From NCBI RefSeq assembly GCF_036669915.1, contig NC_089319.1:4880826-4944825 (forward strand): a DNA stretch of 64,000 nucleotides. The letters are read 5' to 3'. A program made the translations under genes and the position numbers. The notes below the pieces were generated by a model, which searched no databases, was not told where the DNA came from, and saw only the letters and a list, made by a program, of their open reading frames with translations. This document shows positions 11,293 to 54,900 of the stretch, piece by piece. The stretch's first letter is position 1, and each line of letters begins with the position of its first letter. Source of the stretch: Pocillopora verrucosa. Its lineage: Eukaryota; Cnidaria; Anthozoa; Scleractinia; Pocilloporidae.

Positions 11293-11798
11293 CTTGCAGA
11301 GGTGGCTATTCTATCACTTTTGAAAATTAAAGACAATAGATACAGGCAAAGATCTTCCTACTTCTGTAAGTATATTAAAAATCTCAAAGAATAATGATCA
11401 GTTGATAATTTGACCTAATGCGTAATTGAGATGTGATTAAGATGATGGGAATTACTTCTTGTCAGATTGCTTTCTAAAATCAGGGACCAAAATATTTCTT
11501 AGTGCTTCTGTATTTCGAGAACGCTTCAATTCGATTGGCTTAAAGACCGATTCATATAACTCAGTTTATAACTCCTTGAAAAATTGGTTGCGGGAAGCTT
11601 CTGTGGAAGCACGCAAATATCGTGTCTTTTGTTATGGAGTTCTTTCAACCTTCCCCTTTGGATATTAACTTAACTACCACCGCTTTCAACATTGATAGCT
11701 TATCACTTTTAAATCGCGAACATTACTGATTTATGTAATGTGTACATCAGTGAGTTTAAAGTATGGACTTTCTCTGTGTGTTTTAAAGAGGGTGTCTT

Positions 11799-23912: not shown

Positions 23913-25449
23913 CTTTGTTTTTCGAGGGTGGCACTTGACAGTATAAAATACTGATAAACGACAGTAAGTGTTAAATTATCACTATGAACGGTCCAACAAC
24001 AATGTGATTGATTATTTCCTTTTCCTTTACGCAAACAGCGTGGATACTACATCAGGACAATTACTGAGACTGGATATCCAATCAGAGAGTCGAGCGAGAT
24101 CGAAAAGATGATCAGTGTCCTTGCAAGGCATTGTTTGATCTTGTGACGCAACGCGGGAAAGAAGGCATTGTGTGACAAGACCAAAATGCGGCTGCAAGGG
24201 CGATTATACAACGACACATGCCTCTATTTGTTTAGGGGCTGATTACATGTTTCTGTGAAACAAATTGCTTCTCTTAAATTAATGAATAATTAGCAGTTGT
24301 ACTGCAAATCTTCTTGTCTTTGATTGTAGAGATTAACATAACAAAAAGTTTCATATAGTAGTAAGAGATGTCATTCCTTGTAAAAGGCTCCTTGAAACTT
24401 TTTCAAGTTAAAGGCATCCTAAAATGCAAAAGAATGAGAATAACATTTTAATCTTATTTGAAACTTTCACTGTGTAGTTTATTCAATAAATGAAAGAAAA
24501 CAGATTAAAGCAATGCAGTTTTGGGCAAATGGCAGGATTTTTTTTCGGTGCTCAGTATTCCGAAGTATTTATGAATCCTTACAAATCGCCAAAGGAAAGC
24601 GTTAAGGTTGACTTTTCGTCTTCATAGCAAACCAGAAATTTTACCAAGTACCTTAGAACTTCGTAAATTCTAATATTTTAAATTATTTGTGATAATTTGC
24701 TGCCATGTGCCTGGATGACGTTCATATAGGGGGACACTCATTGCAATTGGTCCGTGATTTATCAGAGGATTTATGGTAGGGTGGGATATTGGCAAGCACT
24801 TAACTTAAATCTATGATAGATACCTCTCGTACAGTGAACTGTAGATGCCTTCATCACGATTTGGGTTAGGCTGATCCAAACTGAAAAAAGTTTGAGAACA
24901 ACAGTAAAAAAAAAAAAAAAAAGTATTTGAAGCCATAGAGGGTGGGGGGAGGGGAAGGGGCAGTTGATGGGAACCATGACCTTTGAATGCAGTTACGGTT
25001 TACTCAATGAAAGACTGTCGCAAGAAGAACGATCTTGGTATAATGTTATTTAATTTATATACGTTTCATTTGATGGAATCATTTGGTAGTTTTGCTTTTT
25101 AATGCGTAGCTCACTTCTGATGAATGTGTATTTTTTAAGTGGAAAATCGGGAATATGCTGTCTGTAGTGAACTCCTGTTTCCGAACAGGCCTCTTAATCG
25201 TTTCTCTCAGATTTTGTCTCTCAGTAACGGCGCATGCTGGGATTGGTCGATTTAGGGGGCAGTTTTCTGTTCCAGGGCCGATGTTAGGTAGAGAGGAATA
25301 CTTCCCTACCTTTCATACATTCCTGCATCAGCTGTCTTCCCGCTTTCAGCACTGAGAGAACAAAAAACAGTTATAAATTACTGAAAAAAAAAACAACAAA
25401 CAAACAAACCAACTGATCTTGTCTTTCAAAAAATATAAAGTATGAATAC

Positions 25450-25503
25450 TCATTGGCTAACCCGCCTATGTAGAGGGGATTTTCACTTTGTTTGACGGGA
25501 TTT
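25450..25503 (-). CDS. Candidate distal tail mini-exon of gene C (NPLY)
   Basis: 54-base phase 2-2 exon, acceptor TTGCAAG, donor GA|GTATTC, encoding NPVKQSENPLYIGG. It sits about 750 bases downstream of the last clear tail exon of gene C and joins it in frame. Same exon as 11239-11292 in unit A. Confidence 0.5.
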
Positions 25504-26249
25504 CTTGCAGAGGTGGCCATACTTTCACTGTTGATTAAAGACAAGACAAATTTCAATAAACGAATAATTTAATATTAAAATTGAAAAAGAAAACCAAAAG
25601 ATCTTCCTACTTCTCTGAGTTCAATCAAAATTTCAAAGAATAACGGTCGATTGATAGTTTTACCTAATGCATAACTGAGATGTGGTGAAAATGATGGGAA
25701 TTACTTTTTGACACTAGAATGCTCCTTATTTTTAAAATCAGCGACCAAAATATTTCTTATTGTTTCTGTATTTCGAGAACACTTCCATTGGATTGCCTTA
25801 AAGATCGATTCATATAACTCAGTTTATTACTCCTTGGAAAATTGGTTGCAGGAAACTTCTGTGAAAGAACGCATATATTATGTTTTTTGTTTTGAAGTTC
25901 TTTCAACCTTCCCCATTGGATATTAACTCATACCTCTGATCACCACCACCGCTGTCAACATTGATGGCTTATCACTTTTAAAACACGAACATTACTGATT
26001 TATGTAATGTGTAAATCAGCGGGCTTAAAGTATGGACTTTCTCCGTGTGTTTTTAAGAGGTTGTCTTGATAATGTTTGGTCAAGATTGTAGCTTAATTTG
26101 AATTGACCACTCCCTCTATGTGGCCGGAAATATTTCTAAACATGCATGCCTGTGCCACACATCGATCCTTAAGATCAGACAGTCTTGACTTATTAAAGTA
26201 AAATACTGAAGGTGAACTGAGCTTCGTGAAGAGATAAATGCGAACTCAC

Positions 26250-29200
26250 CTTTCGTACAATGGGTTGTCGCTTTCCTTCACTGTTTTATTGCTGAAAGAA
26301 GACAATTTCGAATCACATTTTGTGGAAAAGCGTACAATTTGAGTGTTTGAATTTGATCAATAAAATTGGCAAACTAGTTTAACCTGTTATTATACATTCC
26401 AGGTGGGTCGACATATGTGTAACGATTATCATTTTCTTCTTCATCACAGCCAGAACTGAAAGCAGAAAAACATGCAAGTATGTGTTTGATAAGATTCTTC
26501 ATATACACACACGTTACAAGCCCCGTCGCTCCCTCTCAACCTGACTTTGAAAAAAGCTCACCGGGCGCGACAATTTTAGGATTTACGGCAGATGCAGGTA
26601 GTGAAGTAGAAGCGACACGACCATCAGTGACAAAGAAATGTCGAATTGTAACCCTGGCCACAAACTTTCACAGGTTTTACCTCGTGTTACACACATCCGT
26701 TGGGGTGGCGTAAATGAAGACTGCTTTCTCGTCCGGTTGAAAGCTCACTGCAGGTGTGTTCCGGTTGTTTTGATTTTCCCTACTACGCCTGCAGTAAATT
26801 TGAAAATCCAAAAAAAGAAAAAAAAAACTGGATGAAACATATAGTTTGCTTCACTAACGGTGTGCAAACTTTTGTAAAGATTTTCCGTACATTTAGCTTA
26901 CTCTAAAGGTGCCGTTCACAATCGATAGTTGAGTTCAAAATGAGATCAGAAAAGTAAATTATGAGAGATTCCTATACGACTTGCTATGTACGCTTGCGAA
27001 GGTGGCAAAACTTCACATTAGCACTTCATGATTTTAAATGAAAAAAACTGTAATTATCCTTACTGTCTGCTTAACAATTCTCATGATAACAATTTGATAT
27101 TGGATCAACTAATAATCTCCTAATTGATATTTTTCTTTATTCTCATCACTTCTATGCTTGATATTGTATTTTTATTGTAAGGAGAAATTCTTTCTTGGTC
27201 ACTCATGGGAGGGAAAGGGCTAAGGATATAATAATGATAACAAAAAGTTGAACTTACCGCTTTTTGTGAAAACAAAACAAAGTTATTGCGAGTATCGCAC
27301 AAATTACTGCCAAAGCTGCTGTCAATCCAGCAATTAGGGAGGTGTTTGACTCAGACTCTCTTCCATCGTCCAAGGTGTCAGACAAACCTTCTCCTCTCGT
27401 CATGGAGGTGGGATCTGTTTTTTCTTGAGAGCCGAGTTTGCTCTCTCTTGTAGAAGATATCTCTTGAGTGGTCTCTTCGCTTGATGACGTTGTGGTTACT
27501 TTGTCTTTGACCATGTTTGTCTGAGTTGAGGCAAGGGTAGTGCTAGTAGTTGTTTTGGCTGCTGTGTTGAGAAAGATAGCGTATTTTTATGTTTGTGGCA
27601 TATACAGAATATTCCAGAATAGGATTCCTGGCCCAGCTTATTGCTATTTGGGGGCATGTCAGCTTGTCTTCCATTAATTGGTTAAACTACGCTGTACTTG
27701 ATTATGAGATTTCTATCGCGTTATAGTGTTCATGTCGGCAAAGCCCGAATCACTGAACTATTCAGCATAAAACTCAAGAGTGATTGTTAAAGAATTTTCT
27801 AGTTATTCAAAACGTAACAACAACCCAAGCGCATATTTTTGTTATTATGTTTACAACCGCTCGCTGTTATGCTAGTCACTCTACTTACTCTCTATTACGC
27901 AATAGATAGCGGGTAGCGTAGCCAATCAGATTGTGACATTCTGATTAGATTGCATATTCGCTTTAAACTAATAGCTATCATCACAGTTATTACGTGTTCT
28001 TATATCGGTCAATTTTGCTAGCTGTACTCTACTGAGCAGCTCGTTAAAGTAGAAAACTGTTTATGTGGACAAAATCTCTCATTTTACCCCTTCCCTTCCC
28101 CGAAGTAACTTCAAAAAAGTTATGACTTTCGTGGCCAAAGAGCAAATCGCAGCGGAGAAAACTTAAGTATGAACCATCAACTCGGTTAGTGTGAGGTATT
28201 TATAACCTTTTCCTCAAAAAGACGGGACTTCTATGAACCTTGAGGTCACTCCATGCTACGCACTGACAATTCAATTTCTTTTAAACGTATTCTCGTCAAT
28301 GGTTTTTAAGTTAAGCCTTAGAAATCATATCAAAACCTCAGTTTCATGTTAAGGCTACTGTATACTTTTGCCTTTCGTAAGCACATCCGTCTCCAATCGC
28401 TTTATCAAAAGGCAAATAACCTGGAAAATTAAAGAGTACAAAGACATCACCCTTTTTCGAGAGAGTCAAATGTAGCTATGAAAGTTATCGGATGTCTAAA
28501 TGTTTGAGGTTTTTTTAGGCTTACCCCTAATCTTTATAGCTTGGTACCTGGCACGAAATCCTTTGCCTGACAGAGTATCATCTGATCGAAAAATAACTGT
28601 AACATTGTTACCAGTGGAATTTAATTGAGGCGTTGTCATGTCGCAGACTGAACCAATCAAAGTTGTTGTTCCGTTCATTAATGTTTCCCACACGTTGACA
28701 AAGTCACAACAATAGCAAATCCACTCTAAACTGACGTCATCAAAAGTGATCAGAATAGCGTAATTCCAAGGGACTTCAATATGCCACTTGCACCAGGCCT
28801 TGTTGTTATAGTTTTGTGGATAGTATGGACTGTGGAAAGTGCCATTCAGTGCTGTCATTGTCTGCGTGCACTCTGTTCGAATGTAAGGAAAACCAAATTG
28901 AGAAAAAATATGTAAACATTGACCAATAATTCTACCTCGATGTTTAAGGGTGTCGCCTAGTGAAGTCTACTACGTTGAAGGGTTAAAATATTGTATTGAG
29001 TCCCTAACGTTAGCGTTTTAACATATAGAAAGTCTTAAGCCGTTTTCCCTTTTGAAAACGGTACACTTTGATTGATAAACCACATCCATCGAACATTACC
29101 TTGCTAAGTAAGGTTCGGGTTTGGAGGATTCGTTTACAAGACAACTGCCTTTTACTGTCATTACGAGCATTTCGTGTCGATGACGGCCTTCAGTTGATCT

Positions 29201-31313: not shown

Positions 31314-33802
31314 GTTTTGTGTTTTTTTCCCATCGGTTCCTCGTTGGTTAAAATCTATTTACCCAGGCTTGAAGGTAACTGCAATTTTATTCGCTCGAGC
31401 TGACCCTATCGATCGATGACAGCTTCTTCTCTTCGCGATCGAAGTTGGTCACAGTCATACGATTCATGCGTGACCTTGTTGTTACATAAGCAAAGCAAAC
31501 AGGAAATTAGCTTGAGTACTTCACAATGATCACGTCCTTAAATGTCCCGGCCTCACTGACGTTCTGTCCTTTAACAGGGCTGATCAAATTTTAATCGATT
31601 GCCTTGCGGCTTGATGGAAAATCGATATTCAATGGAAGAACAGAGTTTAAATTTTATTTTCTATTTTTTATGACTTGTTTCGAGTATTCTTATCACGCGT
31701 CAAAGCAAACTATTAAATCTTCTGACAATTTCCGCATTGTGTTTAAATGACAGGAATGTGACAATTTTATCCTCGTTAATTTAATTGAATTTGGGAACTT
31801 GATCTTGTGTTTTCCGTCGAAATCAAACTATTATAAAATGCGAAATTACATATTTCGATGTCGCGAAAACCGTCATATCTCAATTCTGAACAATGCCAAA
31901 GCTGATTTCAAAGACGAGCTGCGTGCAGTTCGTTAATCAAATTAGATCAGTGTGAAATTTGAATAAAGAACTATCGATAAGAGGACGAGTTTAGGTAGAT
32001 TTTGCCAAGTACGTGGGATATATAAATGGATTTAAGAATTAGGTTTGAAACATGTTAACTCAAATCAATTCGATATGGGGATGAACTTTGAAATTGAATA
32101 CAGGAGAATTTATAATAAAACTGGTTGTCATATTTGGGCCAAACGTGCAGAAACTTGAATTTGAAAATGTTTTCCCCTTTGGTAGCATGACCACTATCTG
32201 GCTATCACCGTAATATGTAATGTTCGCTATGTTTTTCCAGATAGCAGGGAGTCGTATCACAAGTTAAAAACTCTATGGGAGTGTTGAAATGTTAAACATA
32301 TTCAGTAGAGTAATTTGTGTCATTTTCGCGTGGTGATGATATGAAATCGGCCCGGAGGGCGAAGAAACACCTCACCTCGGTTAATTAAAATTTAATTTTG
32401 CCTCTTCGGAAGTTTTCAGACAAAGATTCTTTTCTCTTTAGTGCTTTATTCGTTACTGCCGATTTTTTTTCTCCATGTTCTTAAAGGAACACTTTCTTTA
32501 GCTGGTACACCTTCAGTTGTATATGAAAACATCAGTCATGTAGGAATTGCGGTAAAGACTTAGGTGATTAGAATAATCTAGTGCCTTGAAGCAAAACGGT
32601 GGCGTTTCTATCTCCCTTCTCCAGACAAAGTACAGCCCGTTGCCTCTCTTAACGCAAGGCTGATAAAAACATCAACAGCTGTTGCCATTTTGACCGAAAA
32701 AAAGGGTGTATTGCAAGTCTTATAATTTTCTTTACTAGAAGATCAGTTTCCTTCGCGATTAACTGTTATCCTGTAGTTGACGACGGAGTGGTCGATTCCT
32801 TCCTTGTTATCTTATTTAAAGGTGAAAGTATGAATTGCAACTTATTTGTGACTGAAGAGATTACGAGGGAATAAAAAACCGATTAGAATTTGCCTTGCTT
32901 CAACGTTTGGCTTTGTGGCATACTTAATAATTACACCCAACTATTAGCCTTGACATAGCCGTTCATTGCTTGCTTGGTTATGATTTAGGGCTAGGTATAG
33001 TTGCTATGAGATTTAGCTCACAAGCTTCAAGTGCTTTCCATTCAGGATCAGATTCTTTGTTTGTAAGTAAGACGTTTCCAATAAGCAACGTCGATTCATC
33101 TAAATGGACATTATTGAAACATGTCTGATTATGAAGTCTTGAAAAAATATTGTCTGACCACACCATGGCTGTTTTGCACTTGCAAATTTAAGTTCAATCA
33201 ACGCGTCTATTATCTTGCGGAAAGCCTAAAAATTGAAAATCAACGAAGTATACTTTCAGTCCACAGTCGTCACACATATATTAGACCATCCTGAAATCGA
33301 GAGAAAAAAATGGCAGTTTAAAAATGTTATTAATTACTCTTTCCTTCCCTTTAATTGCGCTTTTTTTAAACTTATTAACATCAAAAAATGTATTTATTGA
33401 AATAATTTCACATGATGAAATTTACTCTTGAATGACTTTTTATTTCAACCTTGGACCAATAAGGTATGATCTCCTGTTTAAACCAATGAAATGAATGATG
33501 TTACTACTGCATGGTGGAATCGTTGCGTAAGGTCTATAAAGAGCAAGAGATTATACAATGTCTTGTATTGAGTATGATCTAAACAAAGCTTTGCCCATAT
33601 GAGGTAGCGAAACCCAGATTGAAATAAGTGCGATAAGTTTGTTCTCGATGTAAAGAAGAAACATTTTTATAGATCAATATTATGTTATCATTAACTGAGG
33701 TTCTAGTAGGATGCATATGTATTCTCTTACAACGCAACTTCCTCCCCAATCATGCATGGCAGCAAATTCAACCAAAGCTACGTTTAGAACTGCAACACTG
33801 AC
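31314..33802. other. Spacer between gene C and gene D
   Basis: Similar to unit A 4809-7245. It must contain the gene C promoter on its left side and probably the missing terminal exon of gene D. A short open minus-strand stretch at 32978-33166 is noted above. Confidence 0.5.
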
Positions 33803-36800
33803 CCTTCATACACCGGATTGATGCATTCAGCCTCTTCTACACTTTGTAAAACATCATCCATGCTAGAACGAGATAATCACTCAAGTCATGCCACGCAAAA
33901 AAACTAACTAGAAGAACAGAACAGCTGTGATAATTGTTTAAGGTATTTACCTTTCGTACAAAATGTTCTCTTTTTCGTCTTGTCCAGTTTCGATGCTGAA
34001 GGTGATAAGAGAATTGGAAACGTGAGTATCGCTCTATTTTATCATTTGCAGATCACAGAGTATTTGGTCAGCGACACACCAGCTCGACTCTTATATATAC
34101 TACACTTTTGATAAAGCATTAAAATAAATCAAATTAAGCCGCGCGCATTTACAAAATAGCTCTTCTTTGTCACTGTTTCTTTAGAATTAGGATAGTTGAC
34201 TTTTGTGGAAGGCAGAAAAGCAGTAAGCCTACAGAAACACCGTGGGTTTAAGGGCGAGAACCAAAGGCAACGTAACCCACTAGTAATGCTAAGTACAGGA
34301 ATCGAGCCCGTGCCACGGTATTGATAGGCAAGTGTTCACATTAAATACCTGTTTTTTCGTTTTGGCTTCATGTGTCAATAGTGAACAAACGCACCGCAAC
34401 AAAGCGTTTCCGGTGATTCTCACTGATTTCATAATTTTTATAAGTATGGTTAATGTGTACTTCATCCTTCAAGATTTCTTTGGAGGATTGCTTTGGGGTT
34501 CTGTCACATTTACGATTCACCTCGAGCCTATTTTTTTCATAATAGCCTCTTTTTGTTCATACTATACAGAGATATCATCTTTGAAAAATACATAAAGCTG
34601 GACTGACACATGGCAAAAATAAACTGTTTGCTCCATCAAAACTATCTATGATGAGGCACACTGGGACGTCATCGTTGACAAATACATGAGGCTGGATTAA
34701 TACGTGGCAAAAATTAAGCTATTTGGTACATTAAAACTATCTATGATGTTACCAAAGTAAAGATCTTTTATGGTTAGGGACAGTACTACTGCATTTCTGA
34801 CCTGCTGCAATAGAGCGGATTGTCACTCTCTTTGATCTCGTCATCATCCGCAAACTGGTCATAGGAATCCATAAAATCCCTGTTTTGAAAAAGACAAAAC
34901 AAAAAATTCTCATCATCTCAAGGAATCGCTATTCTCGGGTATGCTTTAGGTATCTTAAACACTTTTAATATTAGAAAAATAGTCGTACCTGTTATCGTAT
35001 AAAATGTTAAATTGTTCCTTCTTTGTCAACGTTTCCGTGGTATAGCGTTCTCCTCTCTCATTTTCTCTGCTGAAACTGGTAACAGAAAACATTACCTACA
35101 GATCTACAAGGATTTTATTTTCTTTTGTACATACTTCCTCGACGTTACGACTGTACACCACCAGTTTTCTGCAGAGAATTAGATCGACTGGTTACCTGTC
35201 CACTTAAGAATAACTATGCTCCGCAGTGATTGGCTGGTTTTTAGTAGCTGTGCTTGGTGCCGATTTTTTGACGAAAATTTACACCATAATGTAACATCAG
35301 TGTTAGGAGAATTAGGAAGCAAAGAAGAGAATTGACTCGCTTAAACGCTGACTTCAGCTGTGTTAGGGCTCGCCCATACTACAGGGCATCTCAAGTGCCC
35401 ACCTTCTACGTAGGACATCGCCCGATTTGTAAGGCAGCGAAGTGTATTGACTGCGATTCATAGTCAATTACAATCAATCTCGGCGAGGTTTAGTGCTCTA
35501 CAAGGAGGCCTCGTCGCCTCAGAGTGACTTATAGGTGTGTCGGCTGTGAATTTCCGGTTTCCCTTAAATTTTGTCGCACCCAAAAGCAGTGTCAAACATT
35601 GCATCGTCAAGGGATCTTTCATTTATTAACATTCTCAACGAACGAAAAATGCCGTCTCTTTAACTACCGCGAATTCATTACGTTGTCGGTATCTTCTACA
35701 CTAGTTGATATCAACAGCTGTAATACAACGAGGGACGGCAACTGAAAGGAACACAAACTATAAACGTCGAATTCTGTGCACACCTTTCGTTGTACATGTT
35801 TGGAGGGTTGTTATCGTCTTCAGCTATCTTCTCACTAGCTGTGTAGCTGACAGTAAATTTGTTATGACCTTTGTCTGTCCTTTTGAACCGCCTAGAATTC
35901 AATTAAAAGGGTAAATAATTAGTATCAAGAATTTTATACAAACGCTATTATACATTTTTAATGAATTTTTGCCTGCGTTGTTTGTTTTCGAACTGATAAG
36001 CTGTAAAATCTGGTCTTTGATGTCCCTCAAAGGCCTAAGATATTTCATGGAAGTCCACACCTATTTTTCTTTTAATAAAGATAGGAAATCTGTGAAGGCA
36101 TTACATCGTGGTATGTCTCAAAACTGCCGTTGAAACATTAGTTTTAGAACTGACCCCAAATGATTATGCCTTGAACTCTGATCGTTACGCTTTACTTCTT
36201 TCATTGTAATGAAAAGTCATGGTCACTGTGCGATCAGTTATCGACTAATTTGCGATAGGTCATCGATTATCCATACCAGTTTCTACGGAGACAAACAAGT
36301 GCTACTGTTACCACCACAGCTAAAGCAGCCAACGAAGCTATCAAAGCAACAATGATGGGAACTTTCCCCGATGCTCTTGAATTTTTGTATTCAGCCTTCT
36401 GTTCGGTTTCTCCATTCGAGTTGCTCGGTTCCCCCTTACTCCTTGATTCGGTTAGTGGAAAGAGTTCTCCACTCGTTACCCTTGAGGTTGAAGTTCTCTG
36501 GGTGGTTTCATGCGGCCTTGTTCTTGGAGGCACCTCATGATCAGTTGTGATTGGTAGTGTTGTCACAGGTATGTTCGTAAATGGGGAGGTAAACGATCCG
36601 TTTGGATTGGTATGAACTGAGGATGCTTTTTGCGATGTTGAATGCCCACTTGAGCGTGTTGTTAGGGTTGATTGTTCTGTAGAGGATTCTTTAGCTGGTG
36701 TGATTGTTGTACCAGTTGTAATTTTGCTGTTGTTGCTTAAAGAAGTAAGTGTTGCTGTATTTCCGGCAGTAGGAGACTTATCATTTCCACTTGTTGTGCC

Positions 36801-39800
36801 TCTGGAATTTGCTCCAGTAATCGGAACTGTGGTAGGACTGACAGAAGTGATATCGGTTGATGTCGCTTTCTGCGTGGTATCTGTTGTTCTCCCCGTACTT
36901 GTTGGTACTTTGTTGAGGAAAAACGAAATACAGAATTAACGTAAGTTTGCGTGTGTGTGATTGATGGCCTTTGTCAATTGCTATATTCTTAAATAGGCGA
37001 ATCTAAAACATTGCAGACAAAAGACGCTTACAAATACAAGATCAAATCTTAATTCTGTAACAAGCAAACTAATTCAAATGCCCAGATCACTATCGTAACA
37101 TCGACCATTTGGAGAGAGCCTTGCTGACAGCTTTTATAATAAAGAGCAAGCTACTATTCTTACTTGTAAGCTGGAGAGCATGATATTCAGCCTTAAAACC
37201 CACGTCTTGGACAGTACCATCTGAGGTAAATGTAACTGTAACGTTATTGGTTTTTGACCGGATATCCCCAGGCGGATACGCCACACCCATACAGTATTTC
37301 CCTGTTAGTTCAGACGTTCCATTTGGAAAGTTGTCGTGTATCTCTACATAGTCGCAATCACAGCTTTGAAAGAGACACATATCACTCGTTTCCAGACGGA
37401 AGTCAACAAATGTCAATGAAATTATGTAGTTCCAGGGGACATTGATATGCCACTCACACCAGGCCTTTTCCTTATATGGAGATGGATAGTTTGGACTTGA
37501 GAAGGAACCATTCAATGCTGTTAAGGTCCATCTACACGCTGCAAAGAAAATACGTGGAAATGAATCGAACCAGCTTGTGAGACGTTCTTTGACCGACAAC
37601 CATTTCCACAAGTCACATAACTGTAACACTACCAGTAGTTTTCCCGCTTTTTATAACATGAAATATCAAGGATTATTAAAGCTACTCCCCCGTACGAAAT
37701 GTAGGACATAACAGGCTACTTCTAACAATTTATCAATTTTTCGTGGAAGTTTCACGGCACAGTTATGTACCCATGAATGGGCAGAGGAACTTTGATGCCA
37801 CCATGCGAGGTCCTTTATCTTCAGAGTCACGGTAGTATAGATACTATGCACAACGCCCATAAAAAAATCGTTTTTGAACCCGTTTTTTCCTCCCGTGATT
37901 GGGGAAACAGCATTAAAAGTTTAATCTGATCAAAGCTTTCAGGAAGTTTTTCTATTCTTCTATATTTGGTGGCTTGCCAAGAAGGTTGGGAATGAAGATT
38001 GTTAAATATTCCATTTAAATTTTTGTACTCGAATTTTCCACTACACCCAGTTCTATGGTTAAGCACCATGCAGCAAGCTTATCACAACCCAGTAGAACTA
38101 GGTGCAAACCCAAGCTCTTTAAACTCACTTCCTCGGCCTCATAAGTTAGTTGGGCACAAATCATCATTAGGTCATGGAACTGGCCATTAGAAAGGGATTC
38201 AATGTCTCAGTCCCAAGTAGTCTACAAGTTTTGTAATTTTACATACCGTCTGTCTAGATTTCCTTAAGCAAAAATAACCCAGAAAACCATCGCTTACCTT
38301 GGTAATAGCAATAATAAATGTAGGGATTTTGAAGATCCGCACCAAAAGGATAAGAATAGACCGCGCGGTTATGATTGTTATCATTCTCTGTGTCATACAG
38401 TATATACTCCAACGTATGTGTTGTTTTCAAAACTTCTTGGCAGTTCTTACTGTTAAAAGCTATCAGATAGAAAGGCTTGTCTATTGGCAGCTCGATAGGT
38501 TCGCTGTACGATCCAACATCTTGACAACAAAACCTTATCTCAGTATCTGATTTGTACGTTCCAGCAGGGACAGTACCGGATTTGAAATTCAAATTTATTC
38601 CATGTTTCCCGTTTTCATCATCCCACAAGACGCTTCCTTCTCGTAGATAGCCTGGACATGAAGAGCCTTTTTTATAAATGCAGTATTGACCGTAAGGCCA
38701 ACCAAATCGACCGTTATCAACAGCACCGGTCGTAATTGTCTTGAAGCAGAAGCTTTGAGTAACATCTCCCGAACTCAGTACTGAAGCATTAAGGTGAAAG
38801 TTTGGAGATTTCGCCGTAAGGCTTTTGTCATCCTCCAAATCTTGATAGATATATCCGGTCTCCCAAGAGAAACCGTCAGCCCCAGGACAACCAGATTTAG
38901 TCATAGGTAGACCGTATTTTCCCGACGGCCATTTGACGGAATTGCCAAAAGCTGAAATGAGAAAATATCATCAGTTATCCGTACACCGTATTTCTGAATA
39001 AGCGCCTGGTCGCGAGTTTGAAATTTCGGCGTAGAGGAGGGGCGCTTCAAGGAGGGCGCTGAATTAAGGGGGTGGGGGAGCTAGTATGTTAAAAGCAATA
39101 GGACCAAAATCAAAAGAACAGATCTAGTATATAAAGGAACTCTGTAAGCATATGAAGATAAAAATCAAAGGGCGCCTTTGGCCAACTCGTGGATAAAGTA
39201 TTTATGAGATATATAAAAAGTTGCTATCAGTAAACTGAGGTGTTAAAAAAAGGTAGAAAGTAGAACCATTGTGAGTATAGAAATTATAGTACTTAAGTGT
39301 GCAATGGAAACCACAGGACGAAATATCAAGAATTCTTAAACGGAAACTTGGATGAAATATATGAAACCGTTGCGGAAACACGACGGTTAACACGCGTTTC
39401 ATTTATCTTTGCCGCACTTTTTAGTTGCTTTTGTGTGAGCATTCTAGTCTTGTCAGTGTCTTGGTGGTACATTCGTCAGAAACTGGGTTCCGACGCCTAA
39501 ACATGCATAAAGTCTATTTCTGTGCCTCTTCATTAAAATTTGATCATACCTTTCAAGGTTGTAGGTTAGATCTAAGAGTACGTATTTACCACAATGTGTC
39601 GTAACTAACTATGCCTACCTTTGCAAGCGTTACAACTCTTGCGGCAACTGTATAACATGTAGTTTGGGTTCCTTTTACATTCACCGATTGATGCCCAATA
39701 CGAACAAAGCTTGTTGTTATCCTGACAACCTTGCAACAAAACATGAAGCATGCAGTGCTAAAACAAGCTGATCAAAGATCTTCTAGAATTAGGCCCTTAC

Positions 39801-41801
39801 AGAAAATCTTAATTCTTAACTTAAATTACAGAGATGTTATAGCATGAAATTGCAATCGAGTTTACAAACGTGTCCTGTTTTGTAACTGAAACTTTAAAAC
39901 AAACAAACAAAAACAACATACGAAATACGAAACAATAAATCACGTAAATATGGATTGTTGTTCCTGTTAGCTGGTTACATTACACTTTCACATGTATTTA
40001 CATGTAGTCTTGCTACTCATCCCAAAAAAACTACACAAAACATTGGAAAACATAGCAGAAAAAACACAAGCACAGAAAAAAACAATAAACATTAAAAAAA
40101 ATGAGCAAATTGAATACGTTCGATGCTGACTCTTGGCCCGAAATATGTTCTTAATTTTTTTTTAACATTTTGTATCATCTCGGCCACAGCTTTCCAATGT
40201 AAAAAGGTTCTTATTCTGCATGCTTCAATCAAAACACAAAAATCAGTAAAAAGTAAGGAAATGAGTACAGTGATCAATTTGTTTAACCCTCGCTTGGAGT
40301 TTTGTGGCTTTTGAAAATTTCACAGTGAAACACGAACTAAATGGACACCTTCGGAACTTTTAAGCTTGCTAGCGTCCGCTTGATACAGCATGTCAGGTTT
40401 CATACATTGCGCAACAATGGTTAATCTCTAATTGCTAGGAAACAAATAGTCGAATTGGCGTTTTACGAAAAGTGGAGAAAGTAATCCACCTCTGTAAATA
40501 ATTACAAAAAATAGGTAGAATTGTCTCAAAGCTTCTCAGCCAACACAGGTTTTTTTTATGAAAAACGCTCAGTTTTATTGCCCTCCTCTGTCCGCGCGAT
40601 ACATCCAGAGGTTTCCTCTGAACACAAGTGTAGTTGAAACAGAATACTAAATATGGGAAGAAAATTCTGGGACTTGAGTCACAACATGGGGTTCGTACGG
40701 CACAGGTTTCACTGTATTATGTCTGCAGTAAAACAAGGCTGTCAAGCGTTTTCTGGTGGCAAGGAATCCTCAGAATCTTGTCACACTATTTGCTGGTCTG
40801 TAATGGCAACTACGTTAGGACCCCTTCCAGAGGCGGTTTTCAGTGAAAGAGACAGCCGGTCGTTGAAAAAAAAAAAGAAGATGGTAAAAGAATAAATGTA
40901 TGCACCGTCCGAGTGGACAAAAATTTGTGGCCCTAATAGAGCGCTAAAATTATTGCAATTGATACTTGCTTGTAGTGTCACCACGAAACCTTTGAAAATT
41001 ATATTTTTAAAATGAACAGATGTTAATGGTGGACTATAGGCGCAAAATATCAGACATTTTGTGCGACAAAGCTGAGATATTCTTGTCTCTTCCGGCGAAC
41101 GAACCTCTAAACACAATAATCCCATCGCCTGTTATTCTGATGATACAACGTCGAACTGCTCAAAATGAAAATTCACAAGTTTAGACTTGTACCTTCTATC
41201 CATGAAAAACTTAAGAGCACAATTCCCAGAACTCTGCGCCAGACAGCAACATTCCAAGAACGTCTCCGTCCGTCAGTCATTATCCTCAGCTTTTAACCTC
41301 TTAGGGCACAGAAAAGCTAATGAAGTGGATTCGACACTGCTAGAAAAGTTTATCGGCCAGCCATGCACCTCGTCACGGGAGGTATACAGGTCAAATACAA
41401 ATAACTAATTGATGAATATGTCTATCATCAGTTGGTGATTTTGTCCTTTAATCTGCTCGGTAAAAAAAGCAACAAAACCTGAAAAATGTTTACTTAATAC
41501 TTAGTAACACGAGAGCGGCACTGCGGTAGTGAAGTATTAGTGTCGTATTTTTACGCTTTATTTTATTCTTGATTCGAGTTCTCAACTTCCATCGAAGATA
41601 TTCATACTGCACACTTATTCATGGTGCGCCATGTGAAGGAGGAGTTGGAAGTAGATAGTCGGCAGTCTGGATGAATTCATTCAACTGAGGAGTGTCACGA
41701 TAATTACTTGATAACAATAGGTTGATAAACGCCAAAAAAAATGACGTAATGTACAAAAACGAACCGGGATAAACACGGATTACAAGAGGTTGAGAGTACA
41801 C
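33803..41801 (-). CDS. Gene D: ShKT-ApeC-CUB single-pass receptor with five tail mini-exons
   Basis: Divergent paralogue next to unit C. Exons: candidate signal peptide 41708-41801, ShKT 39619-39729, ApeC 38298-38951, CUB 37164-37538, stalk plus membrane helix 36277-36907, tail 35784-35846, 34989-35069, 34802-34879, 33951-33995 and 33803-33841. Ectodomain exons are phase 1-1, the membrane exon 1-2, tail exons 2-2. The stalk is a long Thr/Ser/Pro-rich mucin-like stretch, about twice that of A-C, which would lift the head from the membrane. The helix is roughly VPIIVALIASLAALAVVVTV followed by CLRRN. Tail exons end in MYNER, NILYDN, NPLYC, NILYER and NPVYEG. Weak points: the first exon and several AAG acceptors are inferred, and the terminal exon with the stop was not found. 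The part modelled spans about 720 codons. Confidence 0.7.
37164..37538 (-). CDS. Gene D CUB exon
   Basis: Phase 1-1 exon starting ACRWTLTALNG, with SPNYPSPY, CEWHINVPW, FRLETSD, CDYVEIHD, GKYC and FTSDGTVQDVGFKAEY. Four cysteines and the Glu/Asp/Asp set of calcium-binding CUB domains are visible. CUB domains mediate protein-protein contact in extracellular receptors. Confidence 0.9.
38298..38951 (-). CDS. Gene D ApeC exon
   Basis: Phase 1-1 exon of 654 bases. ApeC hallmarks in order: WPSGKYGLPM, SGCPGADGF, YIYQDLEDD, FCFKTI, GWPYGQYCIY, LWDDENGKHG, FCCQD, PIELPIDKPFYLIAF, CQEV, YDTEND, YPFGAD, YCYYQG. It keeps the Gln codon that is a stop in gene A. The donor is GTAAGC and the acceptor has a good pyrimidine run (TTTTCTCATTTCAG). 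Confidence 0.9.
39619..39729 (-). CDS. Gene D ShKT-domain exon
   Basis: A 111-base phase 1-1 exon encoding one ShKT domain with six cysteines: C-QDNNKL-C-SYWASIGE-C-KRNPNYMLYS-C-RKS-C-NA-C. The spacing and the final CxxxCxxC match the family. The donor is GTAGGC; the acceptor is a weaker GCAAG. Genes A-C and E show no such exon. ShKT folds occur in potassium-channel-blocking peptides but also very widely as extracellular adhesion or enzyme-associated modules in cnidarians. Here the linked membrane receptor argues for the second role. Confidence 0.8.
41708..41801 (-). CDS. Gene D candidate signal-peptide exon
   Basis: Starts with Met, then a strongly hydrophobic run (SFLYITSFFLAFINLLLS), ending at donor AA|GTAATT in phase 1. 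It would join in frame to the ShKT exon at 39729, giving Ser-Cys at the junction. This was the best of the first exons I could find between 39730 and 42890, but the roughly 2-kb intron and lack of homology keep confidence low. Confidence 0.4.
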
Positions 41802-42893: not shown

Positions 42894-44807
42894 CTATCCA
42901 GCTTTCTTATATGAATTAGAAATTGTCACATATGTCCTTAGCCAAGTCTTGTTGTTCACCTCAGGCCCGTCTCTAAAACAACCTAAACATTAAAAACAGA
43001 AAAGTGTCAGTAAATTTTTTTTCCTTTGACCTTCTTTTCTTTGATATTTTGTAAATTATCTACAATTTATCACTGGTTTAATGAAGAGGTTCAATGCAAC
43101 CCCAAAAAGTATTTAAGCTCTGCCTCAATGCAGATAGAGTTTACCACATCTACCCAGCAGATTGAGTGGGAAATGCCAGAAAAAAAGACAAGTACTGACT
43201 TTTGCGAATTTTTTTCGAATATTTCGCTTTGCAAATGTGTACAATGTATACAGCGAATACGTGAGATAATACTCCATAATGATAATAAACAGGCGCAAAA
43301 AAGAGTACTAAGGTATTTCTTTAGAGTGCTCTTTTGACTGAGAATAAACTTTAAGACGACCACGCGTCTCCCAAAATTGCCTCCAACGACGGAGGAACGT
43401 TTAGCACGATACGCGCATAACCATCTAGCACAACTTCGCAGACGTGTAAATATGTAGCGGCACATGCACTCTCCCACCCGGTTCTGGGAAGTTAGATTAA
43501 ATTGGATGTGGTCTCTAAGTAAACGTACTGTTCATAACGCCGATTTTCTGTCCTTGGATCCTTGTGACTTGAATATTGGTTACTGAAATAAGACGAAGTG
43601 AAATTTCATCGGTGTGACATGGACTTATTATCATAAGTTTATTGTCATAAGTCCAAAAAATCAACTTACCCTTCATATAAAGGGTTCTCAGTCAGGTGGC
43701 CTTTTTCTGAATTAAGTCTAAAAAAATAAGGTTCAGATAATGTTTACATTATCTCACACATAGTCCTCAACTTCCTTAAAGTATTTTAAGCATACATTAT
43801 CTAACAAATGAACTTATATAAATTGAAGCAACGTGTCGTTTACTTTGAAGAGCAGAGAAATTGTCTTTCAGTACCAATTGGCTATAAGAAAAGGACAAAA
43901 AAAACTTGCTCCTGGTAACAAAGAAGACATTAAACATAATCTATTGCAAAGCGAGAATTTGACATTAATGGAAATTACCGGTTGTCATCGCTTTGCTTAT
44001 CTTCGAAGAACAGTTCCTCCATTTCACCACTGAAGGGAAAAAACAAGTTTAGGAGCTCAGAAATGTTAGTCCCCTAATCAGTTAAAGAGACGTATAGTAG
44101 CAAGTGGGTCGAGAGGTACCGGGCCGACCCCTAGTAGGGAGTTGATGTATTGTGCTACTTGGCGAAACTTAACTTTAGCTGTCATCGCGTATTTCTCCAC
44201 CAAAGGGTATTATGGGTGCTAGAAAACAAGAAATCTGGCGAAGTACTGGCAAAGACCTGCCGATGGACCGGTAGCTTGCAGAGGGGAGATAACAATACCT
44301 TCTGACACTTAACGCTTCAGACACTAAAATTTCGGAATAACCTTTAGGGAAATCTTACAAAACACAGGGGATAGCTTGATGGGCTGATGGGCTTGTATTT
44401 TGCAAAAGAGGCGAGCAAGACTCAAAGTCACTTCATGCTTCAAAAACTGGAATTTTCGAAGAATTTACGAGGGAAACATGGTGAAATACAGGTGATGGCC
44501 CTCCGATGGACTGTTATCTCGCAAAGGGGAAAGGGCAATTCTCTCCGCCGCTTCATGCTTTAGAAAATGGAATACTCATTGTACAGATGGACCTTTACGC
44601 ACACAAAGTGATTGAGCCTGGATTTTAACATGGCCCTTGACGTATAAGTTCGACAGCGGAAGAGAAAACTGCAGCCGTGGCACTATCACATACCTGTCTC
44701 CGTACATATTGATGGGTGACAGTGGAGTGCTGGATATGCTTGATTCTTTAACACTGTTGTATCTTACTATTTCATGGGAATGGTTGCGCCTCTTACGAAA
44801 ACGATGC
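42894..44807 (-). CDS. Gene E cytoplasmic tail exon series
   Basis: Five exons: 44694-44807 (basic, then RYNSV and INMYGD), 43979-44029 (acidic, no tyrosine), 43670-43717 (TENPLYEG), 43529-43582 (TENRRYEQ) and 42894-42972 (RTYVTISNSY, then stop). The first four are phase 2-2 with lengths 114, 51, 48 and 54, all multiples of three. Each has GT..AG borders. The NPLY exon has the core clathrin/PTB motif NPxY. Confidence 0.75.
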
Positions 44808-47800
44808 CTGTGAAAGAAGAGGAATGACATACATCAATGAATAAAGCCATTGATCCAGTGGGAGTAAGATCAACATACAATGACAATCTCATCAACAGCA
44901 ACAGGAATAATGCTATCCATATCAGTTGTCTTTACTCAGGGATAGAAGCAGAGGAGTAGATTACAAAAATACAATTCTCCAGGGTGTCAGGGGCGTGCAT
45001 GTAGCTTTTTGTATCATTCTTCACTTTTTCTGGACAAAAAAGGGGTCACTTGTACCTAAAAACACCCTCCCCCCTACTGCTCTTAGCGAAACTCTTGGCA
45101 CAATTGTCTCTCATCCTTTATTCCACCTCAGAAATGAAATGAAATAGAGAAATCCTTTTGGGGAACCACGTCCTCTCGGGTTCACTCAGTAGAGTCCGAG
45201 CCAGATACACATAACAAGAAGCTCCTGGTACCCTCCTTGGTATAGAATCAAATGACGGAGAATGAACTCCATTCACGCACCTTCTTTTGCAAAGCTGGCA
45301 AACCAGAAGAAAACTGACAAAGACCACTACAATAAAAGAGCTGCTGGCGATAATTACGTATTTCAGCGATACGCCCATGACTTTACGAGACAGCATTTCT
45401 TCGTTCCTGTACGATTTAACATCATGAATACTTCCAGTTGACTTCCATTCAGCCTCAGTGCTTGCTGGAACTTGTGAAGTAGATATTCGCCTTTCTTTCA
45501 GTGTTGCTCGAGTATTTTCAGTGGTCGTACTATGAGCTGTTTCAGTAGATTCTATTGTTGATGGTGCAGTGTGTGATGAGGAACTATTGCTTTCTGTAGC
45601 CGCTGAAGTTGACTGTTGAGTTGTTTTCACTCTCGGAGAAGTTGGTTCTGAAGTATTGTACATTGGTGAAGACGTTTCCGTTAAAGCTGTGGATGTCATT
45701 TCTAGATTGAATGAAAAAATTGAAAGTGCTACAGGCGATGATTTTATTGATATTAGGGGTTGAAGTGTAAGGAACCCACCAGGACTTAGAGCAACGCCGG
45801 AGACTCGAGCGGTGGAAGATGAGGAAAATGCAAAGGAGGAAAAAGTTCTGAATTTGTGGGTCGCTTCAGATTTACACTTCTCTTGAGAACCATCTTTACT
45901 TAGAAAGGAAAATAAGAAACGGTTGCGGGTACAGAGGGCTTTTTTCGAGATTTCCTTAAAATGAATATAAAACCGTCAGTAATCAGCATTGATGTAAATG
46001 CTTGCCTGCTCTCTGGTGATTTGCAACATTCAGCAAACATTTTACTTCAACATCTTTCTCTATCCTTCGGGTAAAGCTCATCTGTGAGGATCATCTCTGG
46101 GTCAAGTATAATTTACCTCATTTTATTGTCTTTCATAGTGACAAAGAACCTTCTAAAGCGGAGAAATCTTTAAACTAAATAGAATGACATCAACAGCTAA
46201 TTAGCTAAAAGTATCCAACCTGCTAATTTCGGTACTGTCGTATAAGATGCATTGAAACCTTTGGCTGTTACAACGTGATCTGAATGAAACGTAACTATCA
46301 TTTTATTGGTCGATGACTGTATGATTGGCAGAGATGAAATCGTTGCACAATATTTTCCAAGCGTTGTTAAGTCACCTTTCAGTGACTCTTGTCGTATATC
46401 TACATAATCGCAGCCGCAGCGGTTGTTTCCGCACGAGGAAGGATTGGATTCGAGTTCGAAGACTCCAAACTTTAGTCGTATCACGTGATCTCTGGGGGCA
46501 GTAATGTTCCACTGACAGTCTTGAAAGTTGTGGTAATTGCTTGGGAAATATGGTGAGGAAAATTCTCCGCTTGCCTGATTTAAGTTCCATTTGCATTCTA
46601 TAGAGAGTTGTCAGTGTAAGAAATTGCATTTATCTTTAAGTGATTTCAGACAGAGAAGCATCGAATAAACAGCACCCTGAGTAACCCTTACATCTCTATG
46701 CGTTCTGTACACAGGTGTTTAGTTAGGAAGTTGCCTTTACTGTTTAACAAAATAAAAAAACAGAAGCATCGAATAGGTCGCTGTAATACCACCTATCCCT
46801 GCTTTCCCTCAACAAAAACTCTAGGAAAAAACACAAGGCCAGTTGATGATACTTAAATAATGACGTGGAAACGATAATACCAAGGTATCCTCCTACTTTT
46901 GGGATTAAGACTTCAATATATATATCTTTAAACTGTAATGCCTGAGCGCGTTTCACCCAGACAGTGAGGGTGTGACCGTTGGGGGCGTGTGCTTTCGCGC
47001 CCCAAACTGGGAAGGCGGCTCAAATCGTATCAGCTCCTCGTAACATCTTTTGTTGCGAATTAGCGTTTAAAGGCACTAATTCTGCGTTCTACTACAAAGA
47101 TATTATAACCTCATTTATTTCTTACCTCTGTAGTAACAATAGTGAATCGTGGGCTCCTTACGATCAGCTCCGTAGGGAAAAGGATAAACCCTGGTGTCCA
47201 TGTTGTCTGTATTTTCGGTATCAAAGACCACATATTCAAGCGAATACACAGCACCCTGGACTTCTTGACAAGTTGTGGACCCAAACGCCATGAGATAAAA
47301 AGGCTTAATGACCGGCAGTGCTATTCTTTTGATAGCAGACCCTGTTGTCTTACAACAAAAATATATCAAAGTGTCCTGGTTGTAAACTCCTGCGGGAAGT
47401 TTTCCTTCTTTGTTATTTCGATTGGATCCGTTTTTTTCGTTGTTGTCATCCCAACGAACGAAGCCTTCGTAAAATTCCTGAGGACAGAAGGCGCCCTCTT
47501 TGTAAATGCAGTATTTTCCGTTTGGCCATTTAGGCTTTCCTTTATCGGTTGCTGTGGAGTTTTTCACGCAGAAGTGTTGCGTTATGTCTGGCTTTCCCAC
47601 CTTAGCTTTTAAGTGAATGCTCGTTGAATGTGCGTTTCTATTGCCATCGTTTTCTAATTCCTCAGTTCGGTGTCCTGTATGCCACGTAAATCCGCTGCTA
47701 TTGGGACATCCCGAGTTTGCCATCGGTAGAGCATACGAACCCGCCGGCCACGAAGAAGAAGCTGAATTATTAATAATATACATTAAAAGGGAAATTTCAA

Positions 47801-49802: not shown

Positions 49803-51074
49803 CTAAGCAGATTATTCACCGTTCATTCGAGAAAATAAAAACAAGCTCGTCTGACACGGTTACTGTTATAGATGTTTATCTTTGTGCTGTCTGGTTGTAA
49901 CCGGGCTAAGTCTAACGATCGTGTGATTGGTCGATAAGACGCCACGTGTCCTAAAGGTCCTTGTTCACTTATCAGCCTTCTACTGATAAGTGTTATGATT
50001 TCAGGAAATCCATAGAGACAGAGGGTCTCCTGGCAAGAGCTACTTTTTACTCAGTTTTACTGCCTTAATTCCAACGATATTCTGCTTGCTTCAAATCAAT
50101 AAGTGACACACATAGTTTTCCTGTGAGATAAAAGGATAATAAGAGCTATTCAATTAGCTAACCTGTCCTTCTAAAAGGGATTTCACTCAGGGATATGACA
50201 AGTTTTACTCGATAAACGACTAAATGTCAGATTTTTAACAAACATGGAGACTAATCGTGGAGATTATTTAACGTTTAGCATTTTTCCCATGACAAGTTTC
50301 TTTAGCAGCTTTTACTAATCAGTAGTGAGGTTGCCTGATATGGAAATCAGTGACCTGTTTTATTCTATAAAAGCATCCTAATGAAATACATCATTTCATG
50401 GTATAACATACCGTGATGATTGCGTATCATGCAGAATGCTGAACAAAGGCAAGTGATATTTTATGGCATATGTAGAAGAAGAAGAATGAGCTGGCAAGTT
50501 TCAAGGCGACTGCTCCCTGACTGATCATGAAAAGCCTTGCACACGAGAAGTGCAAAAATTCACTTCAGGTCAGCTTACGGCTTTCAGGTCTAATGTCTGG
50601 AAGGTTACCAATGTATTTTACAATGTAAACGCCCTTAAGAGAGGGAAATACATCAATAGACAGTTGTAATTATCTCCTTTCATTGTATCTTTTCGGGTAC
50701 AGTAATTTTCTATAAACTAATCTTAAAATTATTCTCACACGACATTCATGCTGATTATTTGGTATAGTAGCGGTTTTGATTAGTGCGATTTTGTTGCCAG
50801 ATCATGAACACAATGATGGGTCAATGATGACTTGAGTGAGGTCCACCGGCGCTGACTCTGCAACTGTTGATTGATTTAAAATCCTCAACTTCAGCGGCTC
50901 AATAAAAGGAACTTACACTAATCTAAAACAATAGAAGATAAAATACGTATAAATTTAGAAGTAAGAAGGTCCCAATTGTAGAGGACGAGTGAAGCAATCT
51001 ATTTAATTTGATCTTGTAGGGGTGAGTGGTGCCAGAAGGAAATGTTTCCGGGTGACACGTGCACTTCGACAACC
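49803..51074. other. Spacer between gene E start and gene F end
   Basis: About 1.3 kb, no coding signal. Should hold the gene E promoter. An alternative gene F terminal exon (50913-50922) lies here. Confidence 0.5.
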
Positions 51075-54000: not shown

Positions 54001-54900
54001 CCTAAAAAATCACAATAAAAGCTAAAATAAGGGCCTAACGAAGTTGAAAGTAGGGAAGCAATTCTTGGGTCTATTTACACAAGTGATGATTTCAATTTTC
54101 CATATGCTGTTCCCACGTTAGTAGATCGTCCCATAGACGAAGATTTTACCCTGATATAGCAAGATTTTGCCTGGGCCACTCGGTACAATCCGTATAGACC
54201 ATGTACTAGAAGACAGTACAATTAACCTGGAACATTAAAGGGCTAGCTCAACCTCGAAAGAATAATATTTTGTTTCTTGATCTTCGCTTCCCTTCGCTTC
54301 TGCAGTATGTGTTATTTAGTGAATACATTCTATCCTACCTAAAGACGTTGCAACCAACAAAGGAAGTGTTCTTTTTCTTTGTCTTTTTTTTTATTTTTCT
54401 AAGTCACCATGTCCAAATCAAGAAAAATTGATAATTTTTAGAGAACAATTATGTCGCGTGTTTTGAATTTAGCCAAAGTGAACTGATTGAATAGGAGAAT
54501 CTGTCGACATATATGTATGACTCATTATCGGTGGTAATGTTTTTGACCGTCATGTGCCCTTCTCGCTATATTTGGCAAAATTTTTCAACGATACTAAAGG
54601 ATGCGCCCTGGCCGGTTTATTTTTCAATAACGCTTTTCTTCTGTAAACAGCCATGGAATTTTAAAGATTTAATTTATTTCCAAGTCTTTTCAAATCAACT
54701 TTCTTTTAAAATAACTCAGTAAGACCTTATTACAATACATCGGTAACTTTCAGCATGCAAGTGCAACCCTAATTTTACTAGTTTGTCAAACTCAGCGATA
54801 AAAAATTTTGCGTCGGAATACCTGTCGCAGTTGCCCATGCGCCATCTGTCAGAAGAAACGACATGAACAAGCCAAGAAATTGTTCATGTGATAGCAGCAT
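51075..54900 (-). CDS. Gene F: Cys-rich single-pass receptor with the same tail design
   Basis: Exons: signal peptide 54822-54900 (MLLSHEQFLGLFMSFLL), Cys-rich ectodomain 53678-54001, stalk plus membrane helix 52893-53517, tail 52191-52316, 51857-51904, 51461-51520 and terminal 51075-51096. Total 1284 bases, 428 codons with stop. I do not recognise the ectodomain; it is a compact secreted fold with about ten cysteines (CPGQNCDSVC, FQCAKTG, SCKTI, RPCYFAES, GVCVGF, RRLCPC). The stalk is Ser/Thr/Pro-rich with repeated TTK/TTE/APT units. The helix is near TALIVVAVIAAVLALCLLGL, then RNKRKF. Tail motifs: VYNEK, TDNILYAR, NNHVYDR. Phases 1, 1-1, 1-2, 2-2 match genes A-E. The start at 54900 places the hydrophobic core correctly; an upstream Met at 54960 would add 20 polar residues. 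The terminal exon could instead be 50913-50922. Confidence 0.75.
51555..51603 (+). repeat. G-rich tract inside gene F
   Basis: Runs of GGG/GGGG separated by A or T, within the intron just before the last NNHVYDR tail exon (51461-51520). On the transcribed (minus) strand the RNA would be C-rich, forming a polypyrimidine-like region about 40 bases before the acceptor. Confidence 0.55.
53678..54001 (-). CDS. Gene F Cys-rich ectodomain exon
   Basis: 324-base phase 1-1 exon with clean borders (acceptor TTTTTTAG, donor GTAAGT). Two NxS/T sites are visible (NGS, NNT). It is neither ApeC, CUB nor ShKT by spacing. I cannot assign a named family from memory. Confidence 0.75.

Follow-up and report, generated by a model that had tools for sequence, protein, structure and literature searches.

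The phagocytic receptor CED-1 belongs to the same class as Draper and MEGF10. Its YXXL motif is phosphorylated by SRC-1 (PMC9388098), and cytoplasmic tails built from many small exons are already known from PECAM-1 (CD31), in which omission of exon 14 removes SHP-2 binding (PMC5664058), and from chicken BG (PMC4046983). ApeC proteins, known from amphioxus and mollusc work, bind peptidoglycan or bacterial cell walls in amphioxus (PMC8361754, PMC9585378), and antimicrobial ApeC proteins are among the secreted proteins listed for an immune cell type of the coral Stylophora (PMC8162421). Here we describe a cluster of six genes (A-F), all on the minus strand, in a 64,000-nucleotide window of the stony coral Pocillopora verrucosa (C8:4880826-4944825, in a genome of 353 Mb and 52 contigs), and focus on the tails of the predicted receptors, which are encoded by serial short exons of phase 2-2, most of them ending in one tyrosine motif.

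Gene D and the evidence that the tails are translated

The coding sequence of gene D, as an assembled exon model, comprises 11 exons and 2247 nucleotides (nt) including the stop, and it is in frame throughout. The signal exon runs from phase 0 to 1, the three ectodomain exons are each 1-1, the stalk and membrane exon runs from 1 to 2, and the five tail exons are 2-2. All rows below belong to the assembled model; D1-D5 were also found by exon scan.

41193..41280, minus: exon 1, signal peptide, phase 0 to 1
39619..39729, minus: exon 2, ShK, 1-1 (Pfam PF01549, E 5.7e-7)
38298..38951, minus: exon 3, ApeC, 1-1 (Pfam PF16977, E 5.2e-69)
37164..37538, minus: exon 4, CUB, 1-1 (Pfam PF00431, E 1.7e-26)
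36277..36907, minus: exon 5, Ser/Thr-rich stalk and membrane segment, 1 to 2
35784..35891, minus: tail exon D1, 108 nt, 2-2, end PPNMYNE
34989..35075, minus: tail exon D2, 87 nt, 2-2, end NILYDN
34802..34879, minus: tail exon D3, 78 nt, 2-2, end NPLYCS; resembles C3 of gene C and coral relatives
33951..33995, minus: tail exon D4, 45 nt, 2-2, end NILYE
33803..33862, minus: tail exon D5, 60 nt, 2-2, end NPVYE
33281..33290, minus: last micro-exon, 10 nt, MV-stop (micro-exon search; same C-terminus as Montipora P0003)

In each of D1-D5 the motif end is followed by two bases of a split codon. An earlier sequence-only reading of this stretch had given gene D five tail exons of 39-81 nt, phase 2-2, with these motif ends; number, phase and ends stand, while the lengths are those listed. 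D1 most likely starts at 35891 rather than 35846, because the added stretch encodes a basic start and VSYTASEK, which resembles VTFTA of coral relatives. The same reading had missed the 10-nt exon: joined to D5, this gives the C-terminus NPVYEGMV, as in Montipora P0003. Gene D could alternatively end by read-through past 33803 (EGSVLQF-stop), but the micro-exon end seems preferable.

Gene F provides evidence for a translated tail. Its model is partial at the 5' end.

53678..54001, minus: ectodomain exon, 1-1, cysteine-rich, not ApeC (gene model; Pfam)
52893..53352, minus: stalk and membrane exon as in P0024, 1 to 2 (comparison with P0024)
52191..52316, minus: tail exon F1, 126 nt, 2-2, end without tyrosine (exon scan; assembled model)
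52026..52100, minus: decayed tail exon, acceptor kept, internal stop, no donor; not in P0024 (alignment to relatives)
51857..51904, minus: tail exon F2, 48 nt, 2-2, end NILYA (exon scan; assembled model)
51461..51520, minus: tail exon F3, 60 nt, 2-2, end NHVYD (exon scan; assembled model)
50913..50922, minus: last micro-exon, LV-stop, as in P0025 (micro-exon search; assembled model)

The Pocillopora verrucosa protein P0024 is identical to assembled gene F from GIKYFL to the end and contains the F tail exactly; its model ends by read-through (DR-stop). A second protein, P0025, reaches 98% identity in its best local stretch, which covers 46% of the query, and it probably derives from a spliced source, because its 1189-nt contig carries 339 amino acids while gene F spans more than 3 kb. 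P0025 ends in YDRLV, and the LV-stop at 50913-50922 is the sole match with a pyrimidine-rich acceptor in 1657 bp. The same micro-exon search returned MV-stop for D (33290) and for a D5-like exon beyond gene B (6730), and none for genes C and E; the background of the pattern is 9 matches in 701,444 strand-bases, counting those of F, D and the D5-like exon. P0025 and P0024 use different stalk acceptors, 53205 and 53352, within one long open stretch, so the stalk of gene F appears to be variably spliced; the splice difference between the two proteins lies in the stalk and at the C-terminus, outside the motif exons.

Similar tails recur in several stony coral genera. The same tail build is present in Stylophora P0002, Montipora P0003 and P0009, Acropora P0004, Oculina P0006, Orbicella P0023, and P0010 and P0011, and F-like tails in Oculina P0026, Orbicella P0028 and Porites P0031 and P0032. 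By eye, P0005 has no tail, and P0007, P0008 and P0014 have no such array. The distant ApeC-CUB relative P0012 carries several YxxL-like sites in place of NxxY; to judge from these sequences, the build is not universal among ApeC proteins. A final [M/L][V/A]-stop after the last tyrosine motif occurs in P0003, P0004, P0006, P0010, P0025, P0028, P0029, P0031 and P0032 as well as at 33281-33290 and 50913-50922 of the window; it thus recurs across D-, C- and F-type proteins, and may be a C-terminal trafficking or PDZ signal. The identity of P0024, the spliced-looking P0025 and the similar tails of other stony corals together indicate that the tails are translated.

Tyrosine motifs at the exon ends

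We counted 21 tail exons (C1-C6, D1-D5, E1-E3, F1-F3 and four of an ApeC-Sushi gene at 6.22 Mb), leaving aside genes A and B, which repeat C, and the last exons (E4 and the micro-exons). By eye, a tyrosine stands one or two residues before the split last codon in 18 of the 21, the exceptions being C1, E2 and F1, and NxxY stands at the exon end in 12. The prediction of serial phase 2-2 exons mostly ending in one tyrosine is borne out by these counts and by the controls. The first scans covered phase 2-2 only; a repeat took in the other symmetric phases, 0-0 and 1-1, as well. On the minus strand of the window, NxxY exon ends with distinct donors number 1, 0 and 14 in phases 0-0, 1-1 and 2-2, where the 14 count motifs repeated among the paralogs A-C and take in a few candidates that do not belong to the tails. 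The corresponding numbers for the plus strand are 2, 0 and 1; for the minus strand of the ApeC-Sushi locus (L014), 0, 0 and 3; and for 27 other loci (490,030 strand-bases), 4, 1 and 3. The phase and strand controls thus lack NxxY enrichment.

Position-wise composition was compared with shuffles that kept tyrosines fixed and permuted the other residues; the rows share ancestry, so the following are not independent trials. In five Pocillopora tails, N occupies position -3 of the tyrosine in 13/33 cases against 3.1 expected (0/2000 shuffles), L/I/V/M position -1 in 22/33 against 5.5 (0/2000 shuffles), and E position +1 in 10/33 against 4.0. Eleven tails from other corals have N at -3 in 28/69 cases against 6.6 expected. 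The array had been described as NPxY-like, and the NxxY enrichment agrees with this. The motifs listed for it, MYNER, NILYDN, NPLYC, NILYER and NPVYEG, do stand at exon ends; MYNER is not NPxY-like, because its N is at -2. The R or S after the motif is largely forced by the donor (AG before GT, phase 2), so that part of the ending YER reflects the splice site; this constraint does not explain the tyrosine or the N at -3. By eye, 12/21 exons have a GTRA or GTAG donor in phase 2, so that retention of the intron would place a stop right after the motif.

Motif residues are kept more often than the rest of the tail in comparisons with relatives: 45/75 vs 109/318 for D-type, 48/75 vs 117/321 for C-type and 13/15 vs 29/85 for E-type tails.

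Neighbouring genes, and gain and loss of tail exons

The assembled models of gene C, with 10 exons, and of gene E, with 8, are both closed in frame. Pfam finds ApeC, CUB and ShK in gene D and ApeC and CUB in gene C; against the PF16977 cut-off of 26.5 bits, ApeC scores 232.7 in D and 217.1 in C, and the ApeC exons of A, B and E are known by their match to that of C (84, 88 and 44% identity, respectively). Genes A-E account for the five ApeC matches in the window. All features below are on the minus strand.

Genes C and E (gene model; C1-C6 and E1-E3 also by exon scan)
27258..27561: gene C stalk and membrane exon, 1 to 2
26681..26788: C1, 108 nt, 2-2, end without tyrosine
26384..26455: C2, 72 nt, 2-2, end PPGMYNN
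26250..26291: C3, 42 nt, 2-2, end NPLYE
25462..25527: C4, 66 nt, 2-2, end NPLYIG; weak donor GTTAGC
25310..25351: C5, 42 nt, 2-2, end AGMYE
24811..24880: C6, SSLYERYLS-stop on read-through, or a 57-nt 2-2 exon spliced at 24824
45281..45701: gene E stalk and membrane exon, 1 to 2
44694..44807: E1, 114 nt, 2-2, end PINMYGD
43979..44029: E2, 51 nt, 2-2, without tyrosine
43670..43717: E3, 48 nt, 2-2, end NPLYE
43492..43582: E4, last exon, contains NRRYE and stop

Genes A and B (exon scan and paralog comparison, except where noted)
about 797/798-904: gene A, C1 copy
498-569: gene A, C2 copy
364..405: gene A, C3 copy, NPLYE
14101..14208: gene B, C1 copy
13806..13877: gene B, C2 copy
13672..13713: gene B, C3 copy, NPSYE
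10632..11316: gene B, first C4-C5-C6 cassette (C4 11251-11316, C5 11119-11160, C6 ~10632-10685; alignment)
9629..10306: gene B, second cassette (C4 decayed, C5 10144-10185, C6 9629-9685; alignment)
7246..7305: D5-like exon, NPVYE, downstream of gene B; candidate MV-stop micro-exon at 6730 (exon scan; micro-exon search)

Gene C was not taken to end with certainty at C6; both of the C6 end types are seen among the relatives P0002 and P0023. The gene A copies of C4-C6 lie outside the window, in L009. Downstream of gene B, 9017-9073 resembles tail exon D2 (GEKLDTERRKLIKHFNILY) and is perhaps a relic; the intron between its C3 and C4 holds, at ~11985-13450, an open frame that is retroelement-like, judged by look only. 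The suggestion that genes A-C, E and F are built alike holds for C, E and the partial F; A and B repeat C. The ApeC exon of gene A (3215-3868) has an in-frame TAG and a 6-nt deletion relative to B and C, so that the gene looks broken in the present assembly. The class name 'ApeC receptors' proved too narrow, because gene F has another ectodomain. No ApeC match occurs at F and no Pfam hit up to E 0.1 in its ectodomain, which is a cysteine-rich domain conserved in corals; an AlphaFold model of the F family (mean pLDDT, the predicted local distance difference test, 40.6) is too poor to place it.

That motifs can be added or lost without a frame change is supported in several places. The C4-C5-C6 cassette is present twice in gene B (81.6% identity over 913 columns), with one C4 copy decayed and the second tyrosine of C6 changed in both copies. 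A stretch starting YC, present in all six aligned F relatives and absent from P0024, corresponds to the decayed F exon at 52100: against 5000 shuffles, Oculina and P0027 beat all, Orbicella all but 11 and P0029 all but 5. Exon counts and orders also vary among other corals' tails. Stylophora P0002 has two tails, one of the order C1-C3-C4-C5-C6-D4-D5 and one of the order C3-C4-C5-C2-C3-C4; because its gene model is a fusion, these orders are taken as suggestive. Sequence comparison thus indicates that tail exons have been gained (the gene B cassette) and lost (the gene F exon) in evolution without a frame change.

Across the genome, 57 exon matches were obtained with an ApeC query. Beyond the window, an ApeC-Sushi gene at a distance of 1.3 Mb (C8:6.22 Mb; L014, L015; Sushi E 1.5e-6) has four tail exons of this kind, ending KVYM, NFLYE, NLLYE and NVLYE. 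ApeC is a single exon in genes A-E and a two-piece match at most other ApeC loci, this gene included. On C5, C9 and C10, 13 stretches with ApeC loci, scanned on the gene strand, gave isolated candidates and no array, and one 6-kb stretch of C12 gave no array. The pattern NxLYER followed by GTRA has 10 matches in the genome vs 2 for a backward control: three lie in the window, two in the ApeC-Sushi gene and five are isolated. These five, without neighbouring exons of the same type, were treated as chance, although one of them (L021) could be a single tail-type exon.

Proposed mechanism, rival explanations and known systems

We think it fairly probable that these single-pass coral receptors, made from two exon pools, carry a variable array of NPxY-like phosphotyrosine or phosphotyrosine-binding (PTB) docking sites. 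Ectodomain modules (ShK, ApeC, CUB) of phase 1-1 are joined through a membrane exon of phase 1 to 2 to tail modules of phase 2-2, most of them bearing one short motif, commonly [S/T][D/E]-N-x-[L/I/V]-Y-[E/D] one or two residues before the split last codon. The ectodomain may bind a microbial or cell-surface ligand, which would lead to receptor clustering; Src-type kinases could then phosphorylate the tail tyrosines, with their hydrophobic residue at -1. Kinase-site preference is for a hydrophobic residue at -1 and an acidic one at +1. The NPxY-like sites would recruit PTB-domain adaptors, as the NxxY motif and the analogy with CED-1 and CED-6 suggest, and the other sites SH2 adaptors; recruitment would lead to uptake or signalling, as with CED-1 and CED-6. 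Because the tail exons are symmetric, docking sites can be duplicated, deleted or reordered in evolution without a frame change. Skipping of single tail exons might also be regulated.

A wider version is rather doubtful: that stony corals hold a phase-partitioned kit, with a phase-1 recognition pool and a phase-2 pool of one-motif docking exons, in which one tail style (basic start, several NxxY exons and, in a number of genes, a final [M/L][V/A]-stop micro-exon) would be fitted to ApeC-CUB, ShK-ApeC-CUB, ApeC-Sushi and F-domain ectodomains. The number of sites would follow exon copy number in evolution and, within the cell, the choice of exons or read-through into an intron, which in phase 2 with such a GTRA or GTAG donor stops directly behind the motif.

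Several points weigh against the proposed reading. LDLR-type NPxY sites have an aromatic residue at -5; by eye, none of the 13 NxxY sites in the five Pocillopora tails has one, which makes LDLR-type binding unlikely. The D1, E1 and C2 tyrosines (MYNE, MYGD, MYNN) have no N at -3. Gene A is broken, and gene B has lost motifs. The ratio of nonsynonymous to synonymous differences (pN/pS) of the tail exons in paralogs A, B and C is 0.79, 1.14 and 0.86, and exons diverge (0.113, 0.027, 0.122) about as much as introns do (0.124, 0.050, 0.120), so that purifying selection in the tail exons is not demonstrated; we therefore rejected this ratio as proof of coding, while the absence of gaps in 222 exon columns alone fits coding. 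Stylophora P0001 (77% identical to D) and the ApeC-Sushi protein P0013 of Porites end at the membrane exon.

The last two proteins, which may be short isoforms or incomplete models, bear on the explanation that the tail exons are open frames by chance and that no receptor extends beyond its membrane exon. The last residues of P0001 are KWYG, as expected of intron read-through. The phase and strand controls, the conserved tails of several genera and the contigs of P0025 and P0011, too short for an unspliced source, make this explanation extremely improbable, and for gene F it is refuted by P0024 and P0025, which carry the tail; the sequence-only reading had named receptors ending after the membrane exon as its test, and this outcome goes in its favour for F, with P0001 and P0013 on the other side. 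We give about even chances to the view that the uniform phase is a by-product of one ancestral tail exon duplicated repeatedly, with no regulated skipping or tuning in the cell. The exons are alike (IKESDNPLY, VKESDNPLY, VKQSENPLY), the gene B cassette is a recent duplication, and the sole splice difference among transcript-like proteins falls outside the motif exons. Set against this view, some coral proteins are labelled isoform X1 or X2, and a C2-like stretch present in Oculina P0006 is missing from Orbicella P0023, a difference that may reflect loss and not skipping.

Two further explanations concern what the motifs do. They could be endocytic sorting signals (NPxY, YxxPhi) of scavenger receptors, with phosphorylation and signalling unneeded, which we hold to be on the unlikely side. 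The five tails contain 13 NxxY and 11 YxxPhi motifs, and the CED-1 NPXY binds CED-6 without phosphorylation (PMC9388098); the missing aromatic at -5 and the hydrophobic -1 and acidic +1 residues, which look like kinase sites, speak against this. Less likely still, the tails may act mainly via SH2 proteins, in the manner of immunoreceptor tyrosine-based inhibitory or activation motifs (ITIM, ITAM), with N at -3 secondary. The MYNE, MYGD and MYNN tyrosines and the YxxL-like sites of P0012 would suit this, as would a mild enrichment of L/I/V/M/F at Y+3 (11/33 vs 5.7 in Pocillopora, 34/2000 shuffles; hydrophobic Y+3 at 29/69 vs 14.6 in other corals), but the 2 ITIM and 1 ITAM motifs stand against the 13 NxxY of the five tails, and 5 and 0 against 28 in the 11 other coral tails.

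If the tails are docking arrays, receptors with different numbers of docking sites, differing by whole exons, already exist in nature, and comparing them could show how site number affects uptake or signalling. The exons expose the inner half of probable coral microbe-sensing receptors, which relatives' gene models can lack (P0001, P0013), and make it testable what ApeC receptors signal through.

Our literature search, with most subscription papers outside its scope, found tails of this build described for neither ApeC nor coral receptors within the text available. The ApeC proteins of amphioxus and molluscs (ACPs) share the ApeC domain, and amphioxus ACP5 also has CUB (PMC8361754), but those described are soluble, and 'transmembrane' and 'cytoplasmic' occur 0 times in the available text of both papers (PMC8361754, PMC9585378). 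CED-1 is likewise a phagocytic receptor, whose tail combines an NPXY for the PTB adaptor CED-6 with an SRC-1-phosphorylated tyrosine; it differs in having one NPXY and one YXXL and another ectodomain, and the consulted part of the paper describes no exon array (PMC9388098). PECAM-1 has a tyrosine-motif tail of eight small, alternatively spliced exons (PMC5664058), but an Ig ectodomain and ITIM/SH2 logic instead of an array of one-NxxY exons. Chicken BG tails consist of many exons of 21 or 24 nt, 13-36 per gene and varying within the family (PMC4046983), with an Ig V-like ectodomain and exons that encode coiled-coil heptads, not single tyrosine motifs. Tails in the style of PECAM-1 and BG have several small exons, and those found here share one phase at both ends: D1-D5 are all 2-2, and C, E and F are alike.

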